This document shows, piece by piece, positions 7,715 through 42,702 of a stretch of 64,000 nt of DNA. Location: NCBI GenBank assembly GCA_903833215.1, contig CAILEM010000153.1:124001-188000 (forward strand), in the 5' to 3' direction. Every line of letters starts with the position of its first letter. The stretch's first letter is position 1. Position numbers and translations under genes: made by a program. The DNA comes from an uncultured Armatimonadota bacterium (lineage in GTDB: Bacteria; Armatimonadota; Fimbriimonadia; Fimbriimonadales; Fimbriimonadaceae). The notes below the pieces were generated by a model, which saw only the letters and a program-made list of their open reading frames with translations, did not search any database and was not told where the DNA came from.

Positions 7715-9754
7715 CTATTTGATGGCCAACAGGCCCAGCTCGGTAGCCACATAGAGTGTCCCGTCACTCCCAATTACTGGACAACCTAAAATGGGCGAGC
7801 CCACTGGCAATCTCCACTTAATCGCCCCCGATGAACTGACCGCAATGACCTCATGAACCTGAGAAGTCCAGCCACCTGGACCGATGTAGACAGTACCATC
7901 GGAGCCAAGCGTTGGCCAGTCGAACTGCAGAGATCCAAGGACGTTGGTGTTTATGTTCCAGACTTTGCTTCCCGTCGGGCTCACTGCCGCGAGACCGTTC
8001 ATTGTCCGAACATAAATCGTTCCATCTTTACCAATGCAGGGGGATGTGGTCATTTCGATTGAGCTTTCAAGTTTGCAACTCCATTTCGACTTGCCAGCTG
8101 CTGTGACAGCGTACAGTGTCGGACTCGTGATAATCCCACCGGCATACCCGAGGGCATAAATTGTTCCATCGGATCCTACCGACGGCGATCCAATCAATGT
8201 CGCACCCGGCTTCTGACTCCATTTTGCTGATCCATTGGGATTGAGTGCAACGATGCGGGATACCTCTTCAGCCGTGCACATGTAGATCGTTCCATCAGTG
8301 CCCAATGCTGGCGATGAAGAGACGTTTGGCAGATTCTGCACCCACTTTTGGGTGCCATCAGGATTTATGGCGTAGAAATTGTTGACTGTAGGCACATATA
8401 TCGTGCCGTCGGCCGCAATAGTGGGGCACCCCTTGCATGGATCGGTAAGAAGAGGGAAACGCCACTTCTCGCTTCCAGACTTTGTGAACGCGTAGAATGC
8501 GCCTAATCCTGGAGCGTAGATCGTCCCATCTGACGAAACAACGGGGGAAAAACCTCCTAATCCGATGGTCGCATGCCATAGCTCGTACCCGTCACTAGCG
8601 ATTGCGTGAAGGCGTCCGTCAGATGCTGTGTAGTAGATCGAACCGTCGGAGCCGATGACTGGTGACGTCGCTGCGTCCGCACCTCCAGAAGTATCTGGTG
8701 TGATTGAAAAGAACCACTTCTGATCGCCGCTTGCGCCAAAGCCTTTCCCGCGACATGTGCCGGATACGTCACCACGAGCCGTTGGCCATGCTGAATTGGC
8801 GAGTCCTGATCCACCTGAGTCAGCCGGCTGGATAGCTAGCGTTGCGGAAGAAGATGTCCCGTTCGATGTTGCCGTGATATTAGCCGTGACAGCCTGTGAG
8901 GCCTTTTGGGTCGCTACGGTGAAAGTAGTGTTATCACTTCCAGCCGGGACGGTGATGGTTGCTGGTACCGAAGCAGAAGCGTTACTGCACTTGATGGAAC
9001 ACGTGACTCCTCCTGAGGGTGCGGGCCCCGAGAGGGTTACTGTTGCCGTGCTGGGACTCCCGCCTTTGACGGCATCCGGGTTGAGTATTAAGGATGTGAT
9101 TCCTAAAGGAGTCAGGGTCAGTGGCATCCCGATCTTTGCTGTTCCAAGTGTAACGGTGATCGTGCTAGTGGATTTGCTGGCGACCGACTTGGTAGTAATG
9201 GCGAAAGTGACAGAGGTAGCTCCCGCCTCCACGTTGACTTTGCTTGGGACGGATGCAGAGCTTGTGCTGGACTTAATGCCAATGGCAGTTCCTCCCAGCG
9301 GCGCAGCGCCACTGAGCCGAATGGTTCCAATGGACGAACTTCCACCGATGACAGTGGATGGGTTGAGGGTTAGTGCCGCGAGGGAGGGAGGATTGACCTT
9401 AAGGCTGGCTGTAGCCTTGAAAGTTCCAGACTTACCGGTGAGTGTGACAGTCGTTGGCGCGGCAACCGGCGAGGTGGTTGCATTGAACGTGATCGACTTG
9501 GAGCCGGCGGGAACGGTGACGCTTTCAGGTACGGTGGCGGCTCGACTACTGCTCGTTACGCTGACGGCGAATCCTCCGGAAGGGGCTGCTTTGCTGATCG
9601 AGATGGTACCGGTCGAGCCAGATCCTCCTATGACTGAACTTGGGTTGAGCTTGATGGACGAGAGGGTCTGACTTCTCGCGATTGTTCCGCTCACGGCAAT
9701 CATGACCATTAGCGTGAGACAAGCAAGATAGGATTTCCTAGAAAGGATATTCAT
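7715..9754 (-). CDS. Secreted protein with three Ig-like/Calx-type repeats and a PQQ-like beta-propeller
   Basis: 679 residues. The first ~30 form a signal peptide (LACLTLMVMIAVSGTIARSQ). Residues ~32-310 hold three tandem ~90-residue repeats, each with 'LNPSxVxGGSxSxGTxxLSGxAPxGG' followed by 'VPxxVxVPAGSxxxTF'. This is a beta-sandwich repeat common in secreted proteins of Armatimonadota and Acidobacteria. After a linker (PTARGDVSGTCRGKG) the remainder is a beta-propeller built from repeats of the form 'SPxxGSDGTIYxxxxxGxLxAIxxxGxxKW', as in PQQ-binding-like/BamB-type propellers. It is probably an exported surface or periplasmic protein; no catalytic residues are recognised. It is convergent with the gene ending at 7413. 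Confidence 0.85.
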   Translation of the reverse strand: MNILSRKSYLACLTLMVMIAVSGTIARSQTLSSIKLNPSSVIGGSGSTGTISISKAAPSGGFAVSVTSSSRAATVPESVTVPAGSKSITFNATTSPVAAPTTVTLTGKSGTFKATASLKVNPPSLAALTLNPSTVIGGSSSIGTIRLSGAAPLGGTAIGIKSSTSSASVPSKVNVEAGATSVTFAITTKSVASKSTSTITVTLGTAKIGMPLTLTPLGITSLILNPDAVKGGSPSTATVTLSGPAPSGGVTCSIKCSNASASVPATITVPAGSDNTTFTVATQKASQAVTANITATSNGTSSSATLAIQPADSGGSGLANSAWPTARGDVSGTCRGKGFGASGDQKWFFSITPDTSGGADAATSPVIGSDGSIYYTASDGRLHAIASDGYELWHATIGLGGFSPVVSSDGTIYAPGLGAFYAFTKSGSEKWRFPLLTDPCKGCPTIAADGTIYVPTVNNFYAINPDGTQKWVQNLPNVSSSPALGTDGTIYMCTAEEVSRIVALNPNGSAKWSQKPGATLIGSPSVGSDGTIYALGYAGGIITSPTLYAVTAAGKSKWSCKLESSIEMTTSPCIGKDGTIYVRTMNGLAAVSPTGSKVWNINTNVLGSLQFDWPTLGSDGTVYIGPGGWTSQVHEVIAVSSSGAIKWRLPVGSPILGCPVIGSDGTLYVATELGLLAIK

Positions 9755-24373: not shown

Positions 24374-26350
24374 ATGATAAGCTACCTCGCTATTTTGCTA
24401 ATATTGGCGAAAACAAACGAATCTGTTTTTCGCCTTGAAGCCGTTTCAGCGTGGGTGAATGATCTTTCGGCAGCATCGGGAAAGCAATTGACCTGTTCTG
24501 CGGATCTCGCACCTCGGATCGTATTCATCAGTTCCACCGACAGCGCTACTGGAAACCTAAAAGTTGCCTTGGCTTCCGCCTTGGGTGCCCATTGGGAAAT
24601 AACTAAGTCTGGTGAGCGACTTACGCGAATAGCTGGCTTTACTCGCGACCAAAACAGACTTGCCGAACAGAAATTGCGATCCCGAATCAGCGTTGCATTG
24701 CAGGCTCTTGCCGCCGCGCAACCAAAGCCGGAAGCCGCCGCTTGGTACGCCAGGTCCCTGTTATCAATGAGCAAATTCAAGGATGGCATTCAGACGGGGC
24801 GAGACCAAAAAGACGGCACCATTCCACCCTTAGAGCTTCCGTGCGACTTCCTCGTAAGGGCTTTGATGCAGGCGATGGACCCCGATGAATTGGCGAAACT
24901 TCCAATGAATCGTAGTGTCGTCTATTCAACCATCCCCACTGCCGCCCAGCGAGAATTCACCTTTAAGATGAAGGAACTTATCACGCCGTTTCGGCAATCT
25001 GAAGAGTTGCTAAGAGGGGCGGCCGAGTTCAACTGGACATTCCCGAGCACGTTCGACAAGTATGGGCTAGGGCTAGTGAGGCAAGCACTGGAAGAATCTC
25101 CAGCGGACAAGATCAATCTATTTGTTCGCAGAGATGTCAAGAACGTCTCATTTTTGCTTACGACCTATACCAAGACGGGAAAGCAACGAACCACTGGATC
25201 TGGAATCATTTCGGTGTTACCTGCGAAAGTCGCGCAGCACCAAGCCGACAGCAAAGTGCCTGTCCCGAAGCTATTCGCAGATCTCTGTCGCCTCTCAGTT
25301 GGAGGGAACCAACCCCTCAGCACAGAGAAAGAAGCCCTTCTCGACTTCGTTACCCTCCGGTCGACCCCCGAACCCTTATCCGTCGGAATCCCCGAGGCGA
25401 TATCTGCCATCGTGGGCCCTCGCCCCTTAGTGGCATGGCTCGGCGACGACGTCTTGGATGCCGCAGTGCATGCCTTACACGACGATACGATCAGTCGGAA
25501 CGAGTTTGCGTCAGCATTGTTTGCCCGATATAGCCAATCGGACGAGAATGGTTGGAAGGTGATTCGACCGATTGATCCCGAATCTTCAATGCTGCGAACC
25601 ATTGATCGGTCTTACTTCAGCCGATTTGTGTCTGCAGTCCGAGGCAAAACGGCAGGACTCCGTGAAATCTGTGTTCTATCTGCTGCCTCCGATACTTCGC
25701 TCTTCGACAAGCCAGTGTTCACACTGTTCTCGCCTGCCATTTCGCGCCTGGGATATAGCGTCCCCGAATCCAGCATGGGAGCATGGATGACGCGATTCCT
25801 CGGCTCTTTGTCAGATGAGTCGTGGAAGTCACTGGTCGCCGGGAATCCACTGGAACTACGAGGCTGCTCGGAACAAGCGGTATCGGAACTATCCGACTGG
25901 GCGACGCTGGGACCAACGGTATTGGATACTAAGAACTCCGATGTACCCGACATCTATAGAAATATCACCGACGCTTTTCCGCAGGGCTTTCCACCCGAGT
26001 CCACCGTGACGACCGATACCAGGTACTACAACGTCATGTCGAAGGTGCTGGATAATGGCGACCTCGCCATGCCGATCGGGTACGCCCATGTCGGGGATCA
26101 TATCGCTGAGGCGATCCGCATCGGCAGCATCAAATCACCCTCCGAGTTCTTCCCATATCGATACCGACTCGGGCAGATGAAAAGCCTCAACTTCACCATC
26201 CGGTTCACCCACGGTCTTGAATTCCACAGTTCTACCGGTGGCGGAACATCATACGAACCGACCAACGAAACCTACACTTGGGCCACACTGCCAAAGGCCG
26301 TCAAGCAGGCGATCGAGGACTCCGTAAAGCAAGCCCAAACCTCGGGCTGA
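24374..26350 (+). CDS. Large secreted protein of unknown function
   Basis: 658 residues with a short hydrophobic N-terminus (ISYLAILLILA). Residues ~20-90 (AVSAWVNDLSAASGKQLTCS to GAHWEITKSGERLTRI) resemble an STN-type domain seen at the N-terminus of secretins and TonB receptors, but the rest is not recognised. It ends GGGTSYEPTNETYTW and a helical tail. It follows the six-cysteine protein gene after 75 bases on the same strand and may be part of that operon. A ~90% identical copy of its last ~40 codons and 3' flank lies at 29631-29841, showing that a paralogue once existed next door. Confidence 0.75.
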   Translation: MISYLAILLILAKTNESVFRLEAVSAWVNDLSAASGKQLTCSADLAPRIVFISSTDSATGNLKVALASALGAHWEITKSGERLTRIAGFTRDQNRLAEQKLRSRISVALQALAAAQPKPEAAAWYARSLLSMSKFKDGIQTGRDQKDGTIPPLELPCDFLVRALMQAMDPDELAKLPMNRSVVYSTIPTAAQREFTFKMKELITPFRQSEELLRGAAEFNWTFPSTFDKYGLGLVRQALEESPADKINLFVRRDVKNVSFLLTTYTKTGKQRTTGSGIISVLPAKVAQHQADSKVPVPKLFADLCRLSVGGNQPLSTEKEALLDFVTLRSTPEPLSVGIPEAISAIVGPRPLVAWLGDDVLDAAVHALHDDTISRNEFASALFARYSQSDENGWKVIRPIDPESSMLRTIDRSYFSRFVSAVRGKTAGLREICVLSAASDTSLFDKPVFTLFSPAISRLGYSVPESSMGAWMTRFLGSLSDESWKSLVAGNPLELRGCSEQAVSELSDWATLGPTVLDTKNSDVPDIYRNITDAFPQGFPPESTVTTDTRYYNVMSKVLDNGDLAMPIGYAHVGDHIAEAIRIGSIKSPSEFFPYRYRLGQMKSLNFTIRFTHGLEFHSSTGGGTSYEPTNETYTWATLPKAVKQAIEDSVKQAQTSG

Positions 26351-26468
26351 GCTCCTTGGCAATGTCGATTATTGTCAGCTTGGTTGAGTCTCAATGCTGG
26401 ATTTGATGCCTCACATAAAAGGGTTTTGGGCGACTACCTCGTTGGCGTCGAAGGGATATTTCTGAACG

Positions 26469-29618: not shown

Positions 29619-29630
29619 GCGCCAAGTAGT

Positions 29631-29841
29631 CGACGCTTCAACTGGTGGCGGAACGACCTACGAACCGACCAACGAAACCTACACCTGGTCCACACTGCCC
29701 AAGGCAGTCGAGCAGATGATCGAGGACTCCGTAAAGCAAGCCCAAACCTCAGGCTGAGTTCCTTGGCAATTGCGATCTCCGCCAGCTTGGTTGAATCTCA
29801 ATACCAAATTTGACGCCACACATAAAAGGGGTTATGTGTGG
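29631..29841 (+). pseudogene. 3' remnant of a paralogue of the 24374-26350 gene
   Basis: From about 29631 to the stop at 29756 the sequence encodes TGGGTTYEPTNETYTW followed by a helical tail ending KQAQTSG. This is about 90% identical by eye to the end of the 24374-26350 gene, and homology continues through the 3' flank (GAGTTCCTTGGCAAT and CACATAAAAGGGG). Nothing of the rest of the gene is present. The intervening 3.4 kb is thus bracketed by imperfect direct repeats (26225-26425 and 29631-29835). Confidence 0.85.
29816..29841 (+). terminator. Hairpin at the end of the gene remnant
   Basis: CCACACATAA and TTATGTGTGG form a perfect 10-bp stem around AAGGGG. The corresponding position of the intact gene (about 26410) has lost the stem. 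No T run follows, so it may be a terminator or processing stem. Confidence 0.5.
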
Positions 29842-29872: not shown

Positions 29873-29928
29873 TGTGACTTTCAGAATTATGTGTCACCCA
29901 ATCTTTAGAGCTAATTGTCACCCTGCAC
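29873..29928 (+). repeat. Left terminal inverted repeat of the transposon
   Basis: Begins TGTGACTTTCAGAATTAT and contains two copies of TGTCACCC, 25 bases apart, which are probable transposase binding sites. It matches the reverse complement of 36116-36171 at 52 of 56 positions. Confidence 0.95.
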
Positions 29929-29929
29929 G

Positions 29930-30874
29930 TTAACCGGTGCCGATGACCAGGCTTTCCCGAGCGGTTTCGACAACCTGCCGGGTGACGGAGGCGATCCCGT
30001 TGATTTCCATCAGTCGAGCGGCTTGCGCGAGCAAGCGATGCAGAAGGCGGAGGTTGCCGCCCGTGATCCTGATGATCGCCCCCACGGCTTCCGCGTCACT
30101 CAGGCTGTTCTCGGGAAGCCGCAGATCCGGTGGGTTCCATTCCTGTAGAAGTTCGCGCATCTGGTTGGCTCCGAGCGGTCGAAACGTGTGGACGAACCCG
30201 ACGCGAGAATAGAACTGCGGGTACCGGGCAAGGCGCTTTTCAAGACCAGGCATTCCGATGAAAACCAACCCAATCCCGCCCGCATCGTAAATCGATCGCA
30301 TCTGCTCAAGGCTGGCCATCTTGAGGCGATCCGCTTCATCGACCAGGACGAGGTTCGTCGGATCATGAATCTCGGAGCGCTGTTTCGCCATCTCCTCGTA
30401 CATTGCAAGCCGTTCGCCATCAAGGGCGTCTCTGTTCACAGGTGGGCCGAAAAGCCAGTCCGTTTCCATGTAGAACTTCTTCCGAAGCTCTTCCTCGTGT
30501 GCGCGAAAACCGTCGAGGACGGGCCTTTGCTGCCGGTCGAGAATCTCGAACGGAATCGACTGTAGTCGGCGCCGCAGGGACTCGATGTCTTGCCCAATCC
30601 GACCTGGCGAATTGATCACCTCCGGTGTGTAAAGGACCGTGTTGCTTCCATTCACGTTAGACAGCTCGTCCAGGGTTTCCTTTCGAGGTTCGCAGGTTTC
30701 GAGCCTCGCCCAGCCAGCGAACCGACGGGCGGACAGCGTCTTTCCCACTCCTGGTGGGCCGCAGCAAGGGCCAATGTAACGATAGTGGCGGCAAGCGTCG
30801 CAGAACTCGGCGAAGCGCCGGTACTCCTGTGTGACGACGAACCCGTCTTCACCGACCGGAGGCAGCCTATTCAT
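29930..30874 (-). CDS. tniB: TniB-like AAA ATPase of the transposon
   Basis: 314 residues. Walker A is GPPGVGKTLSARRFAGW and Walker B is LVLVDEADRL. A sensor-like region follows (GLVFIGMPGLEKRLARYPQFYSRVGFVHTFRP). This is the architecture of transposition ATPases (TniB/TnsC/IstB class) that select the target and activate the DDE transposase. It overlaps the transposase gene upstream by 8 bases. Its stop lies next to the left terminal repeat. No separate TniQ-like gene is present in the element. Confidence 0.88.
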   Translation of the reverse strand: MNRLPPVGEDGFVVTQEYRRFAEFCDACRHYRYIGPCCGPPGVGKTLSARRFAGWARLETCEPRKETLDELSNVNGSNTVLYTPEVINSPGRIGQDIESLRRRLQSIPFEILDRQQRPVLDGFRAHEEELRKKFYMETDWLFGPPVNRDALDGERLAMYEEMAKQRSEIHDPTNLVLVDEADRLKMASLEQMRSIYDAGGIGLVFIGMPGLEKRLARYPQFYSRVGFVHTFRPLGANQMRELLQEWNPPDLRLPENSLSDAEAVGAIIRITGGNLRLLHRLLAQAARLMEINGIASVTRQVVETARESLVIGTG

Positions 30875-32324
30875 TGATATACCGTTTCAGCGAAGGCAAG
30901 GCGGAAGCGACCGGAGGCTCGTCCTTGGCATCTTCCATGTTCCACCTTCGGACCTGCAGCAGCGTGTCCACCACTCGCTGACGATCGGCGAGGGTCTGCT
31001 TCAACTCTCGTCGCCGCCGGTTTCGAGCTTGGAGGACGTCGCGAAGGGGCACCGTTTCACCGGCCAATTCCTGACAGACCGCACGGCAAAGAAAGCGGTC
31101 TTGCTGAAAGACGCGCACCTCGGCGACGTCGCGCGGGTCGTAGCGTAAGATCACACTCTCTCCGACATAAGCCGCTAAGTTCGGATCGATGTAGCGCATG
31201 CCTAGGAAATGGATCCCGTCGGGATGCACCTTGCGTGAACGGACGACCGTGATCAGAAGCAAGTCCAACTGCTCCAGCGAGTCCGCCAAGCGCGGGAGAA
31301 AGCCGTTGGCCCCCCAACGATCATTGGGCGTTGTACCGGTCTCGTTCTGCACACGGACGTGATAGGTTTCACAAAGAAAGCGCCCGAAACATTCGCTCAA
31401 ATCCCGCAACGTTAGCGTTGGCTTACCTCTCATCGCACCACCCTCCGGGGAGTAGCCAGGCAATTCGCAAAGGAACATTTCCTGTACCGTTTGAAAGAAC
31501 CGCTCGATTCGACCGCGTCCACGGGGCTGCCCCGGTAGGGAAAAGATCAGGCGGATTTTCAGGTCGGCGGCGACCTGCTCTTGATGGAGCGAGGTGAAGT
31601 CGCTGCCATTGTCTGTGTAGAGCACGTCCGGGATGCCGCAAATGTGCCAGTGGGGATTTTCTTTACGCCATATTGGTTGGCGGAGGGCGAGCGACGTGTT
31701 AAGTGAGGAAGGCGCGTTGAACGTAAGGAAGTACCCCGCGACTGCGCGGCTGTAGTCGTCGAGCACGATGGTGAGCCACGGCTTTGCCGGTGGTTCTCCT
31801 TCCCGGACAAGTAGGATGTCGAGCAGGCAATGGTCAGCCTGCCATATTGAGTTTGGGCCGTCTGCTTCGCGCCGATGAACCAGATCGAAGGTTTGGGAGT
31901 AAGCCTTGCTGCCGTCCTGTGCGAGAGTCCTCAAGGCGTCCGGAATGCCTCGCACAGTTTGATAAACTAGGGAGTAGCTGGGTGGCAGAAGCCCGCCGTC
32001 GATAGCGACTTTACGGACTTGCCGGTGGATAACAGCAATCGTCAGCGGCGGCTTCTGCAAGGCCAACCCTTCTATGAGATGCGCGAGTTCGGTAGTCAGC
32101 ACCCGATGCTTGCCGCCGTCGCATCGACCTTTTCGAGACAATCCGACGAGACCTTCGGCTCGATAACGGCGCACCCATCTTCTGAGGTTACGCAGCGATT
32201 GCCCGGATGTGACTGCTATCGACGGCAGAGCTTCGCCGTCTTCCAGAAACGGCTTAAGAACACGAAACCGCTTCAAAGCAAGCTCTCGCTCGTCTGACGT
32301 CAGGTTCGATAGCAGAACGTCCAC
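30867..32324 (-). CDS. tniA: TniA-like DDE transposase of the transposon
   Basis: 485 residues. N-terminal helix-turn-helix segments (SGQSLRNLRRWVRRYRAEGLVGL) precede an integrase core with DDE residues in WQADHCLLDILL, VLYTDNGSDFTS and GRGRIERFFQTVQ. A Mu-transposase-type beta-barrel C-terminus follows (DGIHFLGMRYIDPNLAAYVGESVILRYDP in outline). The fold matches TniA/TnsB/IstA-type transposases that act with an AAA ATPase. It is shorter than typical TniA (~560). The paired 56-bp ends with two TGTCACCC motifs each fit a transposase with repeated end binding sites. Confidence 0.9.
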   Translation of the reverse strand: MDVLLSNLTSDERELALKRFRVLKPFLEDGEALPSIAVTSGQSLRNLRRWVRRYRAEGLVGLSRKGRCDGGKHRVLTTELAHLIEGLALQKPPLTIAVIHRQVRKVAIDGGLLPPSYSLVYQTVRGIPDALRTLAQDGSKAYSQTFDLVHRREADGPNSIWQADHCLLDILLVREGEPPAKPWLTIVLDDYSRAVAGYFLTFNAPSSLNTSLALRQPIWRKENPHWHICGIPDVLYTDNGSDFTSLHQEQVAADLKIRLIFSLPGQPRGRGRIERFFQTVQEMFLCELPGYSPEGGAMRGKPTLTLRDLSECFGRFLCETYHVRVQNETGTTPNDRWGANGFLPRLADSLEQLDLLLITVVRSRKVHPDGIHFLGMRYIDPNLAAYVGESVILRYDPRDVAEVRVFQQDRFLCRAVCQELAGETVPLRDVLQARNRRRRELKQTLADRQRVVDTLLQVRRWNMEDAKDEPPVASALPSLKRYINE

Positions 32325-32335
32325 CGTTATACTCC

Positions 32336-33238
32336 TCAGTGTTCAAGGCGACGCCGGCGCCAGGCCCGTACTTCCGCGTCGGCGGCTGCATCGGACTGTT
32401 CGGCATAGCGCAGGGTCGTCTGTAAGTTGCGATGCCCCAAGCGCTTTCGGATCGTGGCGAGACTCACTCCGTCGTTGACGAGTTCAGTTGCATGGGTATG
32501 CCGGAGTTCGTGCAGCGTGCATTCGACACCCACCCGCCGACAGTAACCAGCCCACCGCTCCTGCACCGACTGATAGCGCAGCGGTCCACCCCGGCCGTTC
32601 TTTTGGGCGCGAAACAACGGCCCGTTGCGGTACCCCATCTTTTTGAGATAGGAGCGAAGTTGGCGCAGAAGCCGGGGATCGTCGAGCAGTATCGTCCGCT
32701 GTTTTCCACCCTTGCCGGTGAGGGTCAGCCGCTCATTGTCCATGGCCAAGTCAAGGTCCTCGACATGGACCCCGAGCGCTTCGCTGATGCGCAATCCAGT
32801 TTCGAAGATGAGCCGAAAAAGGAGCCGGTCGCGCTCCTCGTTCGCTTCGATGACGCCAAGGATTTTCTCAACCGTCTGACGGCCAACCCCGCGCGGCAAC
32901 GGTGGCTCCCGCCGCACGCGTTCGATGCGGTCCATGGGATTGGCGGTCAGTAAGTCCTGCCGGCAAGCCCAACTTAGGAAGCTGGCAAGCGAGGCCTGCT
33001 TCCGGGCACGCGTAGCAGGGGCCAGACTTTCAATGGACTGTCCAAAAGCCCGAAGCGCGTCGGTCGAAACCTCCCGCAAGCAGACCGGGGCAAGAGCGGC
33101 AAACTGGGCGAGGTCGGTCTTGTAGGCGCGCTGCGTGTTCGGCGAATGGTTTGCCCGGTTCATGTCGCCGAGAAAACGATCGACACATTCTTGGAGCGTC
33201 GCGCAGGCTTCCATCTCCTTGGGTCTAGTTTGCATCAA
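32336..33238 (-). CDS. Tyrosine recombinase (XerC/D-like), probable transposon resolvase
   Basis: 300 residues with an N-terminal SAM-like core-binding domain (CVDRFLGDMNRANHSPNTQRAYKTDL in outline). The catalytic residues are R in ETGLRISEALGVHVEDLDL, HELRHTHA, LGHRNLQTTLRYA, where the tyrosine is the nucleophile. It precedes the transposase gene by 11 bases in the same direction, so the three genes form one operon. A likely role is cointegrate resolution at the site just upstream (33249-33356), as TnpI does in Tn4430, replacing the serine resolvase of Tn402-like elements. That role is inferred. Confidence 0.9.
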   Translation of the reverse strand: MMQTRPKEMEACATLQECVDRFLGDMNRANHSPNTQRAYKTDLAQFAALAPVCLREVSTDALRAFGQSIESLAPATRARKQASLASFLSWACRQDLLTANPMDRIERVRREPPLPRGVGRQTVEKILGVIEANEERDRLLFRLIFETGLRISEALGVHVEDLDLAMDNERLTLTGKGGKQRTILLDDPRLLRQLRSYLKKMGYRNGPLFRAQKNGRGGPLRYQSVQERWAGYCRRVGVECTLHELRHTHATELVNDGVSLATIRKRLGHRNLQTTLRYAEQSDAAADAEVRAWRRRRLEH

Positions 33239-33248
33239 GAGTTTCTCA

Positions 33249-33356
33249 TTCCTGCGATAACGATAGATTTCTCCGCCAGCCTCGTTTCATCTATCAGGGT
33301 AGAAACCGGGTGGCACGGAGGGCTTTTTCCTGCGATAACAAATATTATCACAGGAA
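33249..33356. promoter_or_regulatory. Candidate tyrosine-recombinase core site (res) with an extra half-site
   Basis: At 33327-33356 TTCCTGCGATAA and TTATCACAGGAA (12-bp arms, 11 of 12 complementary) flank a 6-base spacer CAAATA, the geometry of a Xer/TnpI-type core. An identical copy of the left arm, TTCCTGCGATAA, occurs at 33249-33260. Both lie just upstream of the recombinase gene, where a resolution site would be expected. The rest of 33239-33562 has no gene. Confidence 0.65.
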
Positions 33357-33562
33357 CTTCAAAAGCCGACTAAATGGGGTGTGCCGACGAAATGGAGAAG
33401 CACCGGCTTGACCGCGCAAAGCTTTCCCGGCTACGGCGACACCAGAACCCCGAAGGGTTACGATGGCAGGCAAGGACACTCGAAATGGGCGAAATTACCA
33501 GGGCGCGGTATTGAGGCCATTCAAATCGACCTCCGAGAGCAGGAGCGAGCGTTTCAATATCA

Positions 33563-33946
33563 CTAATCATTTGAAGCCATGGGCACCGCAAACGTGATCG
33601 TTCCCCAATAGACGTATAAACGGAACGGGTATACGTGTTGCTTTTGCTCAAGATCTACGCTTAAGATGCAAGGCGCTCCGCTTGCTTGACATGTTCTGAC
33701 CACCACTCGCCGCAAACGAAAGCTTCCGGTCTTGTTTCCTATTGTTCTAAGAGATTGAACTGCGTCCTCGGTAATTAGCCCTTGTGTCTCTACTGATCGG
33801 AAGTCCCCACCCTGAGTCTGTTCGAAAACCTGCCTTACAGTCTTCATCGCCAATCCCGTGGCACGAGACGTTAGAACTAGCGGCACAGACAGCGCCGTAA
33901 GAACAAGGCCGACGAGGACAACAACGATCATCCGTCGAACTCTCAT
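33563..33946 (-). CDS. Small membrane-anchored protein, possible immunity partner
   Basis: 127 residues with one N-terminal hydrophobic segment (MIVVVLVGLVLTALSVPLVL) and a short soluble domain with two cysteines (VRTCQASGAPCILSVDL). No family is recognised. It lies 62 bases downstream of the chimeric metallopeptidase/Rhs-junction gene on the same strand, the position expected of an immunity protein if the larger product is a toxin. That role is inferred from position only. Confidence 0.6.
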   Translation of the reverse strand: MRVRRMIVVVLVGLVLTALSVPLVLTSRATGLAMKTVRQVFEQTQGGDFRSVETQGLITEDAVQSLRTIGNKTGSFRLRRVVVRTCQASGAPCILSVDLEQKQHVYPFRLYVYWGTITFAVPMASND

Positions 33947-34008
33947 CCCATTGTCTCCGCTTCACGCATTATCGACGGCACTGACGTTTGACTCTTCCCC
34001 GAGGTTCA

Positions 34009-35964
34009 CTAACCACTCTTCCGAGTGCCAGGCGGTACATATACCATCGGATAGAACATATTCACACAATCAAGAACACTTGTGGCCCAGGTATAGCAGT
34101 TATTTGTTAGTGGAATGACCCAGTTTCCCCCGGCAGAGTACTCTCCGCCATCAAGACCTTTGATGCACGAACAGGCCCTACTGGCATCATCGCAACTCGC
34201 TGAGACTTGAACGCATTTCACCTTGTCCTTACCGCCATGCCCGTTGTTAAAGGTTTGCCATCCCGGTTTGCATGGATACGGATTCGGGTTGACCTGTCCG
34301 CCGCTCAAAATTCCATTTCCTGTCGGGTAATAGCCACCCGAACAGCCCCCATGCGGACCGGTGACGCAGATGCTTTCATGGCCGGGAATGTGACTAGTGA
34401 TCGACGTGTCTTCGTAGCATACATACACCGCACAGCCCCCAAAACCTCCTCCAGGCAACCCAATAGGCCTCGGACCTTTCTGGGGGCTCTCTCCGCTGGG
34501 ATCTGTATAGGTGGTCGGATTGTTGAAAGCGTACGCATAAGGGTGTTCCCCTGCTAACATCTGCTCCATCCGAACCTGGGTAATGAACCGTGCTTCGCCG
34601 GTGGAATATGCCCTGCGGCCTTGATTCCCGATCTTCATCGCTTCAAACCTCTCCATCTGTCTCCTCCGATTCTGTTCGTTAATCTCCATAATTCTTGATG
34701 CTTGCTCATGCGGACGCAGTGGCTTGGGAAGATGAAAGGACAGCGCCGCTGGCGGCGTCCAGTTATCCCCGTCAACGCTAAATTCCGCTTCCGCTCCAGA
34801 CAAAGTCTCTCGCATTCGAACCTGGGCTTTTCCTCCCAGACCAGAGCGTGCCACGGCTTTGCCCACCTCACACTTCTGCTGAGGTGTCAAACCATGCAGC
34901 CAACCAGGCCATTTGTCGCGCCAATTAATCGCAGGCGGCTTTTCGATAAGGTCAGCATCCAAATTCAAATGCTCACCTGCAAAGGTGAAGCACAACGTAA
35001 GCGCTTTATCAATGCATCGCTTTGCAGACTCAGTCGAGGCTCTTGATTCACTCTCGATAATTTCAGCCAGATCTCCGGCGAGACTCCACTCTTCAGGGAG
35101 CTTCTCTTGAAGAACTGCAAAAACATCATCAACACGGGTCACGTCGCTTGTGCTTTCCACGAACACTTCTGCCAGCAGCATTGCCATCACGACGGATTCC
35201 CACCGGCTTGGCGGCGTGTATCCCTTCGAAACTGCGACGGAAAGTTGTGTCAGCGAAATCAAGCGATCGTTGTCCATCGGCGACGTGTCAAAGCCTTTCG
35301 ACCGAATGAGGTCGTTGACGCGAAAATCGAGCACGAACGATTGGATACGCTGCACTTGCCCATATCGCACTTCGTCTGACAAGTCCTCCAAGACCCGATA
35401 GTCCTCAATCCCGTCTACCAATTCCACCCACACATGACCCAATTCATGAGCGAAAGCCGCCTCGTGAATGCGCGCAGCATCTAAAAATAGAAGGATGCGG
35501 TTTGGATCGCTGCCGGAATCGACCGAATGGCTGTGCGGCATCGCCTGCTCGGTCCTAAGATGGGGGATCGTGTCCAGCGGCACGAATTCCTTAGGGGTGC
35601 ATCCGTGGAGTTCTTGAAGCATATCGGTCAATCGTTGGCTGACGTTGCTTGGGATCGAAACCGGGTACAAATTGCGAGGGTCTGCAGTATGCTCGGTGAT
35701 GCCGAGAGTCATTACACTTGAAGCAAAGGTGTGGCCGTCCACAACCCATTCGATACCGTGTGCATTAGTCATACGCGACCCAACAGCCGGCAGGCCAATG
35801 TGAACGGCAAAGATGCTTGCCCGTTCCTTGAACGCGGCGAGTTCTAGTTCAAAGGTCGGGTCCGAAGGATTGGGTAGACGTTCCAACGCAGCCGCTACGC
35901 TTTGAGGGTCGATTTCATGAAACCGGTTAGGTCGTGTGCCCGACATATTCAAATTGTACGACAC
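34009..35964 (-). CDS. Chimeric protein: HELGH metallopeptidase-like domain, Rhs C-terminal junction, cysteine-rich tip
   Basis: 651 residues. A zincin motif AAFAHELGHVWVEL lies at 170-181 (H173, E174, H177), with acidic residues downstream that could be the third ligand. At 458-491 the sequence RFITQ...HPYAYAFNNPTTYTDPSG is the C-terminal signature of Rhs/YD-repeat core proteins, which normally separates the shell from a variable toxin tip. The following ~160 residues are unlike the rest: glycine-rich, eleven cysteines, and near the end NNCYTWA, a cysteine context seen in papain-like toxin domains. There is no Rhs repeat barrel and no obvious signal peptide. It is transposon cargo. Toxin function is inferred; the motifs themselves are clear. 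Confidence 0.72.
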   Translation of the reverse strand: MSYNLNMSGTRPNRFHEIDPQSVAAALERLPNPSDPTFELELAAFKERASIFAVHIGLPAVGSRMTNAHGIEWVVDGHTFASSVMTLGITEHTADPRNLYPVSIPSNVSQRLTDMLQELHGCTPKEFVPLDTIPHLRTEQAMPHSHSVDSGSDPNRILLFLDAARIHEAAFAHELGHVWVELVDGIEDYRVLEDLSDEVRYGQVQRIQSFVLDFRVNDLIRSKGFDTSPMDNDRLISLTQLSVAVSKGYTPPSRWESVVMAMLLAEVFVESTSDVTRVDDVFAVLQEKLPEEWSLAGDLAEIIESESRASTESAKRCIDKALTLCFTFAGEHLNLDADLIEKPPAINWRDKWPGWLHGLTPQQKCEVGKAVARSGLGGKAQVRMRETLSGAEAEFSVDGDNWTPPAALSFHLPKPLRPHEQASRIMEINEQNRRRQMERFEAMKIGNQGRRAYSTGEARFITQVRMEQMLAGEHPYAYAFNNPTTYTDPSGESPQKGPRPIGLPGGGFGGCAVYVCYEDTSITSHIPGHESICVTGPHGGCSGGYYPTGNGILSGGQVNPNPYPCKPGWQTFNNGHGGKDKVKCVQVSASCDDASRACSCIKGLDGGEYSAGGNWVIPLTNNCYTWATSVLDCVNMFYPMVYVPPGTRKSG

Positions 35965-36115
35965 ATTATTTCGAATGACTGCCTCATCGCCTGAAAAACC
36001 CGGAGCAAGATTGGCAGTCTGATTCCAAAACGGCGAAAGATCTATCCACAGCTATGGTCATCCGTCCTTGGTTTGCGTTTTTGCGTTTCGTGTGCAGACC
36101 CCAGACTCGCTCAAA

Positions 36116-36171
36116 GTGCAGGGTGACAGTTATCTCTGAAGATTGGGTGACAGATAATTCTGAAAGTCACA
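36116..36171 (-). repeat. Right terminal inverted repeat of the transposon
   Basis: Reverse complement begins TGTGACTTTCAGAATTAT and, like the left end, carries two TGTCACCC motifs. Four mismatches to the left repeat in 56 positions. Confidence 0.95.
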
Positions 36172-36203: not shown

Positions 36204-39098
36204 TCAGACCTGGATCGCTTGATACCCTGGCACGTTGTCGTCGAACCAGCGTCCAAAGTGCATTTGGTAAAGCGTCCCATCATCTTCGAAGGATTGAAGG
36301 TCGAAGGGGGTGCTTGCATTCCACGCATCGAGAATCGGGACACTCAACCTATAAGCCCAACCAGGAACAAAAATCCATGAGTCCACAGGCAATGGCTCTG
36401 AATCGTCTCCGGTTGTAATCGGCGCAACAACGTGAACGGTTCCACCACGCTTTTCTCGGAGCTGACTTAGTGAAATTCGAAACGCCTCTCCGCTGGCAGA
36501 CGTAGGTTGCTCCCAAGCAAGAATTCTGATTGCGGCGTCATCAGGTACGTCAAGCAAAATTGGGAACGTTGCATTCCCAAGGCTCCTATCCGTAATGGCG
36601 ATCATTTCCCTTGAGGAGCTGAGAATCTGCCCGATAACTGACTGCGCTCGGCTACGCTCACCAGACTCAAGTGCAAAAACAGCATTGACGGGCGTCTCCG
36701 TTTGAGGCAACTCCAAGGTCGGATCTCCAAGCTCTTCTATAATCATCTCAGCTCCTTGCCTCAGGGCCTCCAAGCGGGTCAACTCCTCTAGCCTGCTTTC
36801 TGGCGTTTGGTCTCCAAGAGCTGCTCTCATAACCTGTGACTTCAACATTTCTGTTGCTTGCACATGAACCTCACCTAACACTTGTGATATGGCTTGTTGA
36901 ACGTCATGGTGAGCACTCTGCATATATCGCTCGATGGCTTGTGCCCACTCACTTAGTCGAAGGTTGCGAAGTTCGTTTTCGGATAGGTTCGCTTCCGCAC
37001 TTCCAAGTGAGCGTGTGCCTAGGTAGGCCACCAGTGCACCAATCGCCACAAAGGGCCAATGTGGGCCGGGTACATGCAAAGCAGCGGTTAGGATACCAAT
37101 TGCGGCTCCAGTAGCAAGTCCAACTCCAGCAGCACGTTCCTTGTGAGCGTTTGATACCTCCGCTTCCTTCACTTCAACCTGCCACTGGAGATACTGGCCA
37201 ATTTTCTCAAATTGCGTTAGTCGGGAGACATAGTCCTCAAAAGTCTCAATCCCTGCCGCTCTTACTGTTTCTCGGATTCTCTCCGACTGTGATTCAAAGT
37301 ATGTGTCAAGAAGCGTTTGAACACCCTCCTCGCTGATCGCCTTTTGGATCTGAGACTTGAATCGAGGAACGTCACGAAGTTCCGACATGGGTAGCTTTTT
37401 GACTATTCGATGGCTCTCCGAAGTGAGGCCGTTCCGAAGGTTGGCAAGGGACTCCTGCTCCAGTTGCGACGCTAGGATTCTCAATTTCTCTGAGAGGATT
37501 GTCTGAGCACGGTCAAATTGGCTCTTAAACAAGTACAGTCGGCGGCGCTCATCAAGCAACTCCCTTTGAATATCATCCCTGGCTGCGTAAGCAATTGCCC
37601 GCAGATCCCCAGCAGCCGCTTTTGATGTTAAGCGACTGGGATCAGTAATGATGTGCCTTCGAAGGGTTTCTAAGAGCAAGACAAGGTTCCCGGTTCCATC
37701 CGTAGCTAGCCCCTCTCTGCCCTCATCTGACTCCGGCACTAGTGCTAAGTTCGCACTGAATGGAATCACCTCTGCGAACTCTATGTTTGAATATGCTTGC
37801 CCCAAGTAACGAACTGTTTTTTCAAAGGCGTCAGAAGTCAAATACTCACATTTATTTACGACTCCAATGATAAGTTTGCCGCGAACACGAAGCTTTTCAA
37901 GCATTGCGTCCAAAGCACGTTGCCCCATGTAATCCTTGTTGAATATCCACAGAGCCGCGTCGATTTGTTCGACGAATTCCTCTGCGACCGCTTCATTGTT
38001 ATCGGAACCGCCGAAACCAGGCGAATCCCAAATATCAACGGTCTCAAGAATCGGAGCTGGCAAATAGGACTCGATTCCTATGATCCCGTTGTGATCGGGG
38101 GTTTCCTCCGCTTCACGAAGAAGATTTTGCGCATCCTCAACCGTTGTCGCCGTTACTGAACCTACTCTAAATATGTTGGTGGTCTCGGTTTCCCCAAAGG
38201 CAACCCGGTGTGGGCAGAACGTACACTCCAATTCGCCTACGACGGCAATTTCTGCTCCTACAATCGCATTGAGAATCGAAGACTTGCCCGCTCGAAATTC
38301 TCCTACAACTCCCAATTTAAACGGCCGTCCTAGTCGTGCCACTATTTCTTCGATTCGCTTTGATAAATCAACTCCCCAGGCTGGCGGCATGGACTCAGTG
38401 GCGTCGGCCACAAGTCTTCCAAGTGAAACTGCCGCTTCTTGAACTGCGTCGGTATCCAGCGAAATTCGCTCTCGGTATGGCTGGCTTGTCGGCTCCGGGA
38501 CAGCCTGCGATGCGCTTGCAGTCGCCCTCGAACCAATGCAGTTGATGAATTTTTCTAATTCAATGGGGTCGTGTTGAAAGGGTCTTGGCTCCGCACTTCC
38601 CCACGGGGCGTGTGAACGTACCCATTGTAGTCGTTCCCTGAAAGACTCAAGGTCGTTAGTGTCCTCGGTAAAGATCAGGCTGTCGGCATATCCTTTAGGC
38701 AATGCCGAATATTCCCAGTTCCTCTCCCAATCGGAACGTGAAATGAGTGGCCATCCTGCCGTAGCGGTGAACCAAGGTGGGGTGTCTGTGCCTTCCCGTA
38801 GATAGGTGAGTAAGTCAAATGCGGCACGGCGGGCCTGATTCATAGGGCTTTTTCCACGGCCACGACCTCGAATTACTACCTCAGACGGAGAAATCTCCTC
38901 AACCATTTCTAGCGAAACTGCCTTAATCTCAATGCAGAAAACACCCTGCTCTTCATCCCAAATGAGGACGTCAATGTTGGCAACCCCTGGAAGGTTTACA
39001 TCGAACCAAAGATGTAGTCTGCCGTCATCAAGTTGAAGAAGTTGTTCGGCAAAATTGGATTCTCCAAAGTGGTCGGGCATAAATCCATATAGAGGCAT
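36204..39098 (-). CDS. Dynamin-like GTPase with N-terminal NERD nuclease domain
   Basis: 964 residues. Residues 1-~105 form a NERD (nuclease-related) domain with the PD-(D/E)xK pattern intact: E13, D43 in NIDVLIWD, E57-I-K59 and Q88. The dynamin-type GTPase follows: G1 GEFRAGKSS (266-274), G3 DSPGFGG, G4 NKCE. After it come long helical stalk-like regions and a hydrophobic double segment (VGLATGAAIGILTAALHV and WPFVAIGALVAYLG), as in membrane-remodelling bacterial dynamins. The last ~160 residues resemble a PLD-like fold without HKD motifs (inference). Its ATG overlaps the stop of the second dynamin gene. NERD fused to dynamin suggests a nucleic-acid-sensing or cleaving membrane GTPase. Confidence 0.85.
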   Translation of the reverse strand: MPLYGFMPDHFGESNFAEQLLQLDDGRLHLWFDVNLPGVANIDVLIWDEEQGVFCIEIKAVSLEMVEEISPSEVVIRGRGRGKSPMNQARRAAFDLLTYLREGTDTPPWFTATAGWPLISRSDWERNWEYSALPKGYADSLIFTEDTNDLESFRERLQWVRSHAPWGSAEPRPFQHDPIELEKFINCIGSRATASASQAVPEPTSQPYRERISLDTDAVQEAAVSLGRLVADATESMPPAWGVDLSKRIEEIVARLGRPFKLGVVGEFRAGKSSILNAIVGAEIAVVGELECTFCPHRVAFGETETTNIFRVGSVTATTVEDAQNLLREAEETPDHNGIIGIESYLPAPILETVDIWDSPGFGGSDNNEAVAEEFVEQIDAALWIFNKDYMGQRALDAMLEKLRVRGKLIIGVVNKCEYLTSDAFEKTVRYLGQAYSNIEFAEVIPFSANLALVPESDEGREGLATDGTGNLVLLLETLRRHIITDPSRLTSKAAAGDLRAIAYAARDDIQRELLDERRRLYLFKSQFDRAQTILSEKLRILASQLEQESLANLRNGLTSESHRIVKKLPMSELRDVPRFKSQIQKAISEEGVQTLLDTYFESQSERIRETVRAAGIETFEDYVSRLTQFEKIGQYLQWQVEVKEAEVSNAHKERAAGVGLATGAAIGILTAALHVPGPHWPFVAIGALVAYLGTRSLGSAEANLSENELRNLRLSEWAQAIERYMQSAHHDVQQAISQVLGEVHVQATEMLKSQVMRAALGDQTPESRLEELTRLEALRQGAEMIIEELGDPTLELPQTETPVNAVFALESGERSRAQSVIGQILSSSREMIAITDRSLGNATFPILLDVPDDAAIRILAWEQPTSASGEAFRISLSQLREKRGGTVHVVAPITTGDDSEPLPVDSWIFVPGWAYRLSVPILDAWNASTPFDLQSFEDDGTLYQMHFGRWFDDNVPGYQAIQV

Positions 39099-41035
39099 CA
39101 GGCTTTTCTCCAGTTCAATCTTCTCATCATCCGAACAGGCAACGCGATCAGAAGCGGTTCAATAGTCGGCCCCTTCAATGCCGAATCGATGTCTGTGATC
39201 ATTCGGGTGTGCATAGCCTTGCCTCCGCTCTGCTCAAACTGCTCATTGCAGTCAGTTTCAAGAGCTGAGGCAACACCGTCATTGGCCTTAGCCAAACGTT
39301 CCTTCATGTCTGCAAAGAGAGCCTCAATTTGGGGAACCACGTCTTTCTCCAAGACTTCTCGAATTTCGCGGGTGGCCTTGGCTTTGGCTTCGATGACCAT
39401 GTTCTTTACAAAGCCACCAAGCAGGGGCATTCCGGATAGAAAATCTCCCACTCCGATCAAAAATCGTTGGATGGAGTTCGTAGGATCAGGGATTGTCCAC
39501 TTTGTGCTTTCTGCTTCAACTCTAACGTCTGTCTTCGTTGTACAAACCGTTGAGATCTTTTCCGCAACACGCCCAGTTGAACTAAATTCCGATTCAAGAT
39601 ACTGCTTGGCCGAAGACGCGACCCAGTTCAGAATGTCGGCGTATCCACTGGTCGCGGCAAGTGATTCGCTCTGAACCAGCATTCGAAGGTCATTCGTGAT
39701 CGCGTCTAGCTGCATTAAGCCCCTTGCCCTCTCTCTTGAGTCATAGTCCACGCTTTGGATTCCGCTCCTCACCCGCCTTAGAGCGTCCTGAGATAAATTC
39801 GACGTACTGCCAGTAATTTGAGCAGTTGTCTTGGTCTTTGCGTTTGAGATTCTCTGCCTTAGGGCCTCATAAAGTTCTAAGTTTGCCTCTGCATCGGATC
39901 GAGCGGTAGTCGCCATAGTTCGGAACTCAGAGCCCTTCTGCCTGAGCGCGGCGTAAATTTGCAGGTTCCTCGTCAAGGCACGTCTTCCGTCAAGAAACTG
40001 CTCAAAGTGCTGCTGTAACAATGGCATCCCACTTATGTTGAGCACTTCTTCGCTTGAAAGCGTCTCGTGTTTCTTAGCCCACTGCCTCTCATCATCAGTC
40101 GGGGTCGCGCTCAAACCTTGTCGGGCAATCACCGCTGCCAACGCTGACATTGGAACAATGGCTGAGACTAGTTGCCCATACTCGCGTTCACTGCGGTCGA
40201 GTGCCTTTTGTTTAGAGGCATCGCTCAATTGATCCCATTTATTCACTACGAGAATCAGTTGTTTGGAATACCTACGGGCTTCCAGGAGTTCCTTTCTCAA
40301 TTCCCTGGCTCCGATCTTTTCCGCCGTAACCAACCAAATCACAGCGTCGGCTCGCTCGTATTGCCACTTGAGATGATGGAGATGCGATGCGGGAGCAAGT
40401 TGTTGGTTGATACCCATTGTATCGACGAGCCGAATTCCGGGCAGAAGAGCATTCTGCGAACAGACAACCCACTCCATTTCCATGACTGGGGAGAAGTATG
40501 GTTTTGAGCTTCCAAGTGAATTTGCAACTTGAGATTCTTCGACGTGAGCAATTTGCTCAGCTTGTTCACGAGATACCCGAAATTCAAGTAAGCCGCGAAA
40601 CTCGCCAAATTGCTCCCCCAGAGTCTCTTTTAAGCGAGTGGCTTCTCGATCATGAAGCAAGTTCCGGTCGGCAAATACCCTGACGTCGTGCCAAGCATGT
40701 TCCATAGCGATGTAACGGTTGAAACACCAAGTCTTTGGAAGGAAATCCGTTGCGGCGGCGTTTTGCCCCAGAATGGAATTGATGAATGTTGATTTTCCAT
40801 GCTTTCCCTCCCCCATGACAAAGACTTCAAATGGCTCCGCTGCCTTACGCTCAGCATCTTGGACTCCAGACAGCAGGTGTGCCAGTCTCTCGGAAATACT
40901 CGACTGCCTAATTCGCTTTTCAAGCCTCTTCTCTTGCTCAACGATAGACCGTGGAACCCCATTACCGCTAGCAAGCAACGCCCGCAAATGACGCTTAAAG
41001 TTAGCTTGCTCGATCTCGTAAAGGTTCGGAACCAT
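39098..41035 (-). CDS. Dynamin-like GTPase (second of pair)
   Basis: 645 residues. GTPase motifs: G1 VMGEGKHGKSTFINSILG (75-83), threonine region KTWCFNRY, G3 VDTMGIN, G4 NKWD. The downstream ~350 residues are helical, with a weakly hydrophobic segment around IGVGDFLSGMPLLGGFVKNMVIEAKAKA that may be the membrane paddle. Tandem, unequal dynamin-like GTPases are typical of bacterial systems in which two partners co-assemble on membranes. It overlaps the NERD-dynamin gene by one base and starts 6 bases after the coiled-coil/TM gene. Confidence 0.85.
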   Translation of the reverse strand: MVPNLYEIEQANFKRHLRALLASGNGVPRSIVEQEKRLEKRIRQSSISERLAHLLSGVQDAERKAAEPFEVFVMGEGKHGKSTFINSILGQNAAATDFLPKTWCFNRYIAMEHAWHDVRVFADRNLLHDREATRLKETLGEQFGEFRGLLEFRVSREQAEQIAHVEESQVANSLGSSKPYFSPVMEMEWVVCSQNALLPGIRLVDTMGINQQLAPASHLHHLKWQYERADAVIWLVTAEKIGARELRKELLEARRYSKQLILVVNKWDQLSDASKQKALDRSEREYGQLVSAIVPMSALAAVIARQGLSATPTDDERQWAKKHETLSSEEVLNISGMPLLQQHFEQFLDGRRALTRNLQIYAALRQKGSEFRTMATTARSDAEANLELYEALRQRISNAKTKTTAQITGSTSNLSQDALRRVRSGIQSVDYDSRERARGLMQLDAITNDLRMLVQSESLAATSGYADILNWVASSAKQYLESEFSSTGRVAEKISTVCTTKTDVRVEAESTKWTIPDPTNSIQRFLIGVGDFLSGMPLLGGFVKNMVIEAKAKATREIREVLEKDVVPQIEALFADMKERLAKANDGVASALETDCNEQFEQSGGKAMHTRMITDIDSALKGPTIEPLLIALPVRMMRRLNWRKA

Positions 41036-41041
41036 GATGAG

Positions 41042-41551
41042 TTATCGCGCCGTTCGGATAATGAGGAGAATGAGAATTGCAACCAACAGCAGTCCCATTC
41101 CGGCCAGTACCCAAAGCAATTGTTTCGCCTGGCTCTTAACCAAAGTAGTCATTGCATCCGCATTTTGCTTGGTAACCGCTTGATGTTCCTGCGCTAGCTT
41201 CTGAAGAGCTTCGGCAATCCGCTGTTCTTGCAGTTTAGAAAGCTCTTCTTGTCGCTGAGACATCGAAATTAAGGTGAGGTCTGCTGACGACTTGAATTCT
41301 GAGATTGCTGGTTCAAAAAGTTGTTGATAGTTCTCTCGACTTTGGACGACAACATTATTGAGTTGATCCACTTCTAGTTTCAGCTGGGCGGTTGTAGAAA
41401 TCAGTGATTGAACTGCTCCATCGGTGGCCGCCACATATATGCTTCTCGTATAAGCCTGAAATTCACGAAATAGCTCTTCTTCCTCGGGTGGAATCTCGGC
41501 GGACTTCACTGATGTTTCCGTAATTGCTGGACGAGTGTCTGTCGGTTCCAT
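41042..41551 (-). CDS. Coiled-coil protein with C-terminal membrane anchor, in the dynamin operon
   Basis: 169 residues, mostly heptad-like helix (for example AQLKLEVDQLNNVVVQSRENYQQ, then RQEELSKLQEQRIAEALQKL), ending in one membrane segment LLWVLAGMGLLLVAILILLII and a short basic tail. It is therefore a tail-anchored cytoplasmic coiled coil, a plausible membrane adaptor or sensor for the two dynamin-like GTPases encoded directly downstream. No named family is recognised. Confidence 0.75.
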   Translation of the reverse strand: MEPTDTRPAITETSVKSAEIPPEEEELFREFQAYTRSIYVAATDGAVQSLISTTAQLKLEVDQLNNVVVQSRENYQQLFEPAISEFKSSADLTLISMSQRQEELSKLQEQRIAEALQKLAQEHQAVTKQNADAMTTLVKSQAKQLLWVLAGMGLLLVAILILLIIRTAR

Positions 41552-41574
41552 ATGTACTCTTTGAATTATTATGA

Positions 41575-42396
41575 CTAAAGCTTTTTGACGGCATGTACCG
41601 CTTCTGTTGCCGCATTGGCTTCAAACAGGGCTTGGTGCATTTCCATCGGCGCATGAAACGGAAGATCCTTATATGCGGCAAGCTGGAGCGTGCCGTCGAT
41701 CGCAAGGTGATACGCGATGCCTACTGCAACACCCGTCTTCGCACTGCCTGACGTCCGCCCATAGATTTGAAGCAGACTGTCCCACAAAGGATCTCGGTCA
41801 ATCGGAAGATGCTCGTGGGACAAAGCGATAAGTTCGTCAAGTGCTATCAATACGGCCTCTGCGGCGGCTCCCATGATAATTGAGTGCGTAAGGAAAGACC
41901 TGTGATTGCCGATCCCAGCAAGTAAGTCTAGGTCTGGCAAGCCTCCATTTGCATCTAGCCCACCCGAACCGATCAAGAACCCAAGTGTGGCGCCCACAAT
42001 TTCCGGGAGAGATTCCGTTGGGTCAGATATAACCGATTTACTCCACCTTGGAATTTGAGTTGCAACTCCTTGGGTCACGCGGATTCCATTACCTACCATC
42101 TCTTTCCCACGCAAGAGCGAGCTTCGTGAAAACTCACGACCAGTTCCTTCTTTTGCTGCCCTCATCCCAGCAACAAAGAAATCATCAGCAGCTACGATTG
42201 ACCGCTTCATCAGTAATACTGCACCTGAAAGTCTGCGCTGCAATCCACGGCCTGCATGACTTGGAGTTCGCAGTACGCAACGAACCACGGCTTCCTTTGG
42301 CACGGAGTTCAGTGCCGTTCGGAACTCATCGGTGAGTCGCCTGACACGGTCATCCGGATTCCAACTATTGGCCGAGATCACACAGGTATCCATCAC
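41575..42396 (-). CDS. YdjM-like putative membrane-associated metal-dependent hydrolase, in the dynamin operon
   Basis: 273 residues. The segment GGLPDLDLLAGIGNHRSFLTHS (in outline, residues 151-172) has the pattern PDxD...HR...THS of the YdjM/DUF457 family of inner-membrane metal-dependent hydrolases. H230 and D234 in AYHLAIDG provide the usual second histidine/aspartate pair. Candidate metal ligands are D155, D157, H165, H171, H230 and D234. Hydrophobic stretches flank these motifs. Phosphatase or phospholipase activity is an inference. The gene lies 23 bases upstream of the coiled-coil/TM gene and 18 bases after the small PPPYD protein gene, so it is part of the same transcript. Confidence 0.6.
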   Translation of the reverse strand: MMDTCVISANSWNPDDRVRRLTDEFRTALNSVPKEAVVRCVLRTPSHAGRGLQRRLSGAVLLMKRSIVAADDFFVAGMRAAKEGTGREFSRSSLLRGKEMVGNGIRVTQGVATQIPRWSKSVISDPTESLPEIVGATLGFLIGSGGLDANGGLPDLDLLAGIGNHRSFLTHSIIMGAAAEAVLIALDELIALSHEHLPIDRDPLWDSLLQIYGRTSGSAKTGVAVGIAYHLAIDGTLQLAAYKDLPFHAPMEMHQALFEANAATEAVHAVKKL

Positions 42397-42414
42397 GAAA
42401 TTTTACTTGACGCT

Positions 42415-42702
42415 CTACTCGCCCGCTCCACTTCGGTCGTAAGGTGGCGGGAAGGGGTGCTGCGTCGCCTCATAGAACCTGATGGGATGGGTGGTTCCGG
42501 CGTCGTAATGGTAGGGATTTGAAGATGGGGCGATGCCTTTGCCGCTCGAATCGTAGGGCGGCGGGAAGGGCAATTGAACTGCGTCGAGTGCCACAAAGCG
42601 TCTCTGCGCTTCAACTTTGGGCACTTCCATCACCACGAGCTCACCCGGTAGCTCCAAGAATACTTTCACTGATTGAGAGTCCACATCAAAGATTATGCGC
42701 AT
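42415..42702 (-). CDS. Small protein with duplicated FPPPYD motifs, first gene of the dynamin operon
   Basis: 95 residues. The N-terminal ~45 form a short beta-rich segment (IIFDVDSQSVKVFLELPGELVVMEVP). The rest carries two copies of (L/H)PFPPPYD(S/R)SG separated by about 37 residues; the repeat is also visible in the DNA. PPPYD motifs are proline-rich ligands that could bind a partner, but no WW-like domain is known in these genes. It starts the operon, with the YdjM-like gene 18 bases downstream. No family is recognised. Confidence 0.6.
   Translation of the reverse strand: MRIIFDVDSQSVKVFLELPGELVVMEVPKVEAQRRFVALDAVQLPFPPPYDSSGKGIAPSSNPYHYDAGTTHPIRFYEATQHPFPPPYDRSGAGE

Follow-up and report, generated by a model that had tools for sequence, protein, structure and literature searches.

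The question raised by this locus is whether a closely packed run of genes around two dynamin-like GTPases forms a coherent system and, if so, what that system does. The window, that is, the whole 64,000-nucleotide stretch of DNA analyzed here, belongs to the 6.2 Mb genome of an uncultured Armatimonadota bacterium and contains five ORFs on the minus strand, all in one direction, between positions 36204 and 42702. In the order of transcription these are P5 (42415..42702, 95 aa), P4 (41575..42396, 273 aa), P3 (41042..41551, 169 aa), P2 (39098..41035, 645 aa), and P1 (36204..39098, 964 aa), with gaps of 18 bp (P5/P4), 23 bp (P4/P3), and 6 bp (P3/P2) and a 1-nt overlap of P2 and P1. The first-pass annotation had described them as a five-gene operon; the five co-directional ORFs are indeed there, but the conserved unit consists of four genes (P3, P2, P1, and P4), with P5 outside it. 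With a probability of roughly 0.5, we read the P1-P4 unit as a horizontally spreading membrane-surveillance system, most likely acting in immunity.

P5 was rejected as a member of the unit because G018, a genome of the same genus, has a homologue with 70-71% identity to P5 but yielded no P1, P2, or P4 match when searched. This homologue (8951-9226 of locus L065) lies on a 23 kb contig of conjugation type (G018:C7) that contains a relaxase of conjugative type, named from its sequence, a coupling protein, a ResIII/Mrr helicase-nuclease, and two DNA methyltransferases, and it adjoins an integrase, a Phd-like antitoxin, and a restriction system. The two PPPYD motifs noted earlier in P5 were found as two FPPPYD copies. 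P5 is a real gene that moves with mobile DNA and not a component of the unit, and genes of its kind may mark mobile cargo.

The recurrence of the other four genes was examined across genomes, and the linkage was found across phyla. P3, P2, and P1 occur together at every locus that is long enough (the window, L032, L034, L041/L027, L042, L043, L050, L051, and L052), with P1 running off the contig in L032 and L050, and a P3 homologue lies directly upstream of P2 at all 10 of the 10 P2 loci examined. P4 is adjacent to the unit in four Armatimonadota loci: the window; L034, in the order P3-P2-P1-P4; L032, where it stands divergently beside P3, P2, and a NERD-bearing P1; and L027, a contig end of genome G157 carrying P4-P3, while another contig end of the same genome (L041) carries the C-terminal part of P3 followed by P2 and P1, which gives the order of the window if the two contigs join. 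P4 is missing from the P3-P2-P1 loci L042 and L043. The order is P1-P3-P2 in L050 (Myxococcales), a P4-P1 fusion followed by P3 and P2 in L051 (Oxalobacteraceae), and an Hsp70-P1 fusion followed by P3 and P2, all behind a second dynamin pair, in L052 (a Victivallales MAG); in L053 (Acidobacteria; one Acidobacterium), P3-P2 stands at a contig end. P3-P2-P1-P4 is a genuine recurrent four-gene unit, and the four proteins probably work together, for which their linkage in several orders and a natural P4-P1 fusion in one lineage are strong evidence.

P1 is the larger of the two GTPases, and the NERD and Dynamin_N assignments proposed for it held up in Pfam, both being over their cut-offs, as is Dynamin_N on P2. 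Its NERD nuclease-like domain (PF08378, E = 2.6e-8, 34.8 bits vs a cut-off of 22.1) covers residues 1 to ~190, and its Dynamin_N match has E = 2.1e-16. An intact D-ExK center had been claimed for the NERD domain, and at the level of sequence this is what we see, with D43, E57, and K59 all there; the same residues and E13 are present in the window, L032, and L012, while L013 has Q in place of D43. A NERD-helicase on Pimelobacter plasmids shares 36% identity with the NERD region. In the GTPase part, the G1 (GxxxxGKS) and G3 (DxxG) motifs are conserved among relatives.

The AlphaFold model of P1, built from a nine-sequence alignment, has a mean pLDDT of 69.8, with the dynamin part predicted well and the NERD part poorly (pLDDT <50 for residues 24-86, the alignment having contained one NERD relative). 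The best Foldseek match of the model is BDLP (E = 1.1e-15), and VIA-align of residues ~205-797 gave Fzo1 (Z = 30.2, rmsd 3.0, 335 residues aligned) and Mfn1 (Z = 28.8). A search of structures with the P1 sequence profile returned a chain of the Campylobacter dynamin pair (5owv_C, E = 2.2e-22) and BDLP (E = 1.1e-16). The dynamin part (residues ~205-797, with the start also given as ~210) is thus predicted to adopt the BDLP/mitofusin fold, with a helical neck and trunk around the GTPase. A hydrophobic paddle is suggested by the sequence at ~674-710, with a GPHWPF motif in most of the Armatimonadota members. The C-terminus (~806-964) forms an unassigned alpha/beta domain, possibly PLD-like, for which no Pfam family came over its cut-off among the relatives.

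The N-terminus of P1 is exchangeable: it is NERD in the window and L032, P4 in L051, Hsp70 (E = 3.7e-11) in L052, and missing in L034, L041, L042, and L043. Since NERD is missing from most P1 relatives, it cannot be the core activity. The Hsp70-dynamin fusion (L052, 4854-8216, 1121 aa) comes behind the further dynamin pair and a protein with an AvrRpt2/C39-like protease domain. We also noticed a second, distant NERD-dynamin plus dynamin pair, without P3 or P4 and with ~27% identity to P1 across the NERD and GTPase regions, at differing locations in two same-genus genomes, one of which is that of the window (G000:C124, 52.6-57.3 kb; L012 8576-13341) and the other of which holds L013 (8913-13672). 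A NERD-less relative of this pair, quite distinct from the pair of the unit, is directly followed by a P4 homologue in L033.

P2, the second dynamin-like GTPase, matches Dynamin_N with E = 1.4e-11. Its relatives are 30-43% identical in five other Armatimonadota genomes and ~21-27% in other phyla, with the G1 GxxxxGKS and G3 DxxG motifs conserved among them; a signature following the P-loop (PKTWCFNRY) is invariant among the Armatimonadota members. P3, P4, and P5 were all below every Pfam cut-off in the search of the window proteins. P3 is a small coiled-coil protein, which had been described as tail-anchored, and its C-terminus is an obvious tail anchor; a conserved N-terminal motif (LFxEFQxYxRS) is followed by the coiled coil and then by this membrane anchor. 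Its place beside P2 in other genomes suggests the role of an adaptor.

The first-pass annotation had proposed P4 to be a YdjM-like metal hydrolase. The motif PDLD...HRSFLTHS speaks for this, and residues D148, D155, D157, H165, R166, H171, H230, D234, and H254 are invariant in 11/11 family members; on the other side, P4 itself matches no Pfam model, YdjM (PF04307) included. Weak matches appear within the family, to DUF2227 in 6 of 11 members (best E = 2.8e-4) and to YdjM in 4 of 11 (best E = 4.6e-5), and hhalign of the family against E. coli YdjM gave E = 0.002 at a probability of 13%, with the HR..THS, G...HL..D, and LP..P motifs aligned. A YdjM match was absent from a search of the window's genome. 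P4 is therefore best described as a YdjM/DUF2227-like putative metal-dependent hydrolase and not as a YdjM member, the link probably holding at the superfamily level only. Its AlphaFold model (pLDDT 52.6) is too weak for a fold search, and the family against PDB sequences returned helical-bundle noise only. The N-terminal region is long and helical, and the start may be the ATG at 42393 instead of the GTG at 42396. P4 homologues also stand alone in L029, L030, and L031, with the same chromosomal neighbors in three Armatimonadota genomes that share a genus, which suggests a role of P4 without dynamins as well. In L028 (8104-10484), away from any dynamins, a P4 homologue overlaps ends with the gene of an FHA-domain protein.

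How widely the unit is distributed bears directly on what it may be for. Relatives of P2 were found in 6 of 291 Armatimonadota genomes, the window's own included, and relatives of P4 in ~10 of 291, plus three marginal matches, counts that may miss relatives as the large searches scored few candidates per genome. Four other groups, each sampled with ~300 genomes, yielded no second example. A scan of genome contigs with P1 alone gave nothing, while the P2 family profile search did find relatives. One reading of the locus, a lineage-specific remodeling of membranes in host physiology (vesicle release, internal membranes, or division), would be in keeping with the tail-anchored partner P3, with the mitofusin-like fold of P1, and with the influence of LeoABC on vesicle release (PMC4159319). 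Against it, the sampled same-genus genomes have no match to P2 or P4, and the P2 tree departs from the family grouping, placing the window with genomes of another family (support 88/95) and two genomes of the window's own family in a separate clade (96/96); we consider this reading improbable. The unit is an accessory cassette that apparently moves horizontally. Direct mobility is unproven, as no homologues were found on plasmids (P2, P4), phages (P2), or IMG/VR contigs (P2 and P4 families); P1 against plasmids gave matches limited to its single domains elsewhere.

The surroundings of some loci are consistent with defense. DarT/DarG lies 0.8 kb from the unit in L051, a DruE-like helicase is a neighbor in L043, and the PADLOC candidate PDC-S11 in L053. 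In L042, VWA (E = 6e-9), PP2C_2 (E = 1.6e-34), and Pkinase (E = 3.9e-11) matches occur in one gene run, with a beta-helix gene separating PP2C from the kinase, and make up a TerY-P-like triad. The window has no such triad and no defense neighbors of its own. As the neighbors were tallied without a background control, the list is suggestive only. The earlier idea of a defense or stress system stays plausible, given that the unit is rare and patchy and has DarTG, a DruE-like helicase, or the TerY-P-like triad near some loci, but it is unproven. We know of no defensive role for many paired bacterial dynamins.

A general machine for membrane repair or envelope stress, triggered by antibiotics or metals and not by phage, in which NERD (membrane DNA binding) and P4 (lipid turnover) would be auxiliary, is a possible but less favored explanation of the same locus. 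Heterotypic bacterial DLP pairs of the Cj-DLP1/2 type tether membranes and have been proposed to act in repair (PMC6104087), the VWA-PP2C-kinase genes of L042 resemble a triad linked to metal sensing (PMC11090510), and the P4 family is a distant match to an inner-membrane protein, E. coli YdjM. TerY-P modules are, however, tied to anti-phage systems too (PMC11090510), and the rarity, patchiness, module swapping, and nuclease domain are more like those of conflict systems.

If the unit does act in immunity, its parts could fit together as follows. P1 and P2 would form a heterotypic pair of the BDLP/mitofusin type, as the fold and the characterized pairs suggest, and the conserved N-terminal helix motif of P3, with its C-terminus in the inner membrane, may dock the pair there. 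On a breach of the membrane, for example by entry of phage DNA or at lysis, GTP-driven assembly would cluster the complex on site. Nearby DNA would then be cleaved by the NERD domain of the clustered P1, and P4, likewise at the membrane, would hydrolyze a phosphoester or a lipid. At other loci the same scaffold would work with a fused P4, with Hsp70, with no module, or beside the TerY-P-like kinase/phosphatase triad. More specifically, and as a tentative suggestion, the unit might represent an immune class in which an anchored mitofusin-like pair brings a DNA nuclease, a metal hydrolase, or Hsp70 to the breach as swappable effectors or sensors and so destroys injected DNA at its point of entry. 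Such a unit would link mitofusin-type membrane machines to DNA-cutting immunity. The purpose and trigger of most bacterial dynamin pairs are obscure, and the anchor and the swappable nuclease, hydrolase, and chaperone offer testable handles on them.

There is nothing unusual in the dynamin pair as such. In bacteria, DLPs mostly come in pairs, and one BDLP1 partner has a DnaJ-like domain (PMC6104087). Like BDLP1 and Cj-DLP1/2, the unit has two consecutive unequal DLPs, with the P1 fold matching BDLP, Cj-DLP chains, and mitofusins, while the dedicated tail-anchored P3, the NERD, Hsp70, and P4 fusions, and the P4 gene are its own. LeoABC/Eleos also has two consecutive DLP genes, and PADLOC profiles of LeoA/LeoBC gave weak, partial matches of 32-44 bits (P1 44 bits to LeoBC; P2 42 and 38 bits), with both proteins matching both profiles as any DLP would. 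To our knowledge, no nuclease, P3, or P4 has been reported for Eleos; the same holds for the description of LeoABC (PMC4159319). In B. subtilis, DynA is likewise a dynamin at the membrane during phage infection, clustering at the membrane of infected cells and delaying lysis (PMC8844932), but it is a single fused DLP with no nuclease or hydrolase, and lysis is merely delayed. The CoCoNuTs, which are McrBC-type GTPase systems, resemble the unit by analogy, with no homology claimed: in their GTPase scaffold an Hsp70-like module can replace the nuclease, and some types come with TerY-P triads (PMC11090510), whereas the GTPase there is the AAA+ McrB and not a dynamin. NERD of the same family (PF08378) is found in the phage-defense proteins of Mokosh and Nhi-like systems (PMC10952713), where it belongs to other proteins (a helicase in the case of the plasmid relative), while here it sits on a dynamin. 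No paper with "NERD domain" and "dynamin" together was found in the open-licence literature, nor any published description of the system. New relative to that literature are an anchor dedicated to the pair, the fusion of a nuclease to a dynamin, a partner that is YdjM-like, and modules that are exchanged.

The operon had also been placed next to a transposon, and the two are indeed close, with 32 bp between the P1 stop codon and the right end of the element. Inverted repeats of 64 nt (29873-29936 and 36108-36171, 89% complementary) mark the two ends of the element (29873..36171), where no target-site duplication was seen (gcaac vs tcttg). It encodes a TniB-like ATPase, an rve/Mu-C transposase, and a tyrosine recombinase (Pfam AAA_22, rve, Mu-transpos_C, and Phage_integrase), together with cargo that includes an Rhs-linked ORF. 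The short distance is what would favor the operon being a chance gathering of its cargo. The operon lies beyond the inverted repeats, so it is not carried by the transposon, and its genes recur in many genomes, with the order of the window seen across the two contig ends of G157; on this position and recurrence the cargo explanation, to which we give almost no weight, was ruled out. Within the element, the ORF at 34009-35964 has a HELGH (HExxH) zinc-peptidase-like motif in its N-terminal half, after which come a short stretch of Rhs-associated core (NCBIfam, E = 4.9e-6) and a C-terminus that is variable. A 204-nt direct repeat (26223-26426 and 29630-29833, 84% identical) is also present, its second copy ending 40 bp before the left end of the transposon.
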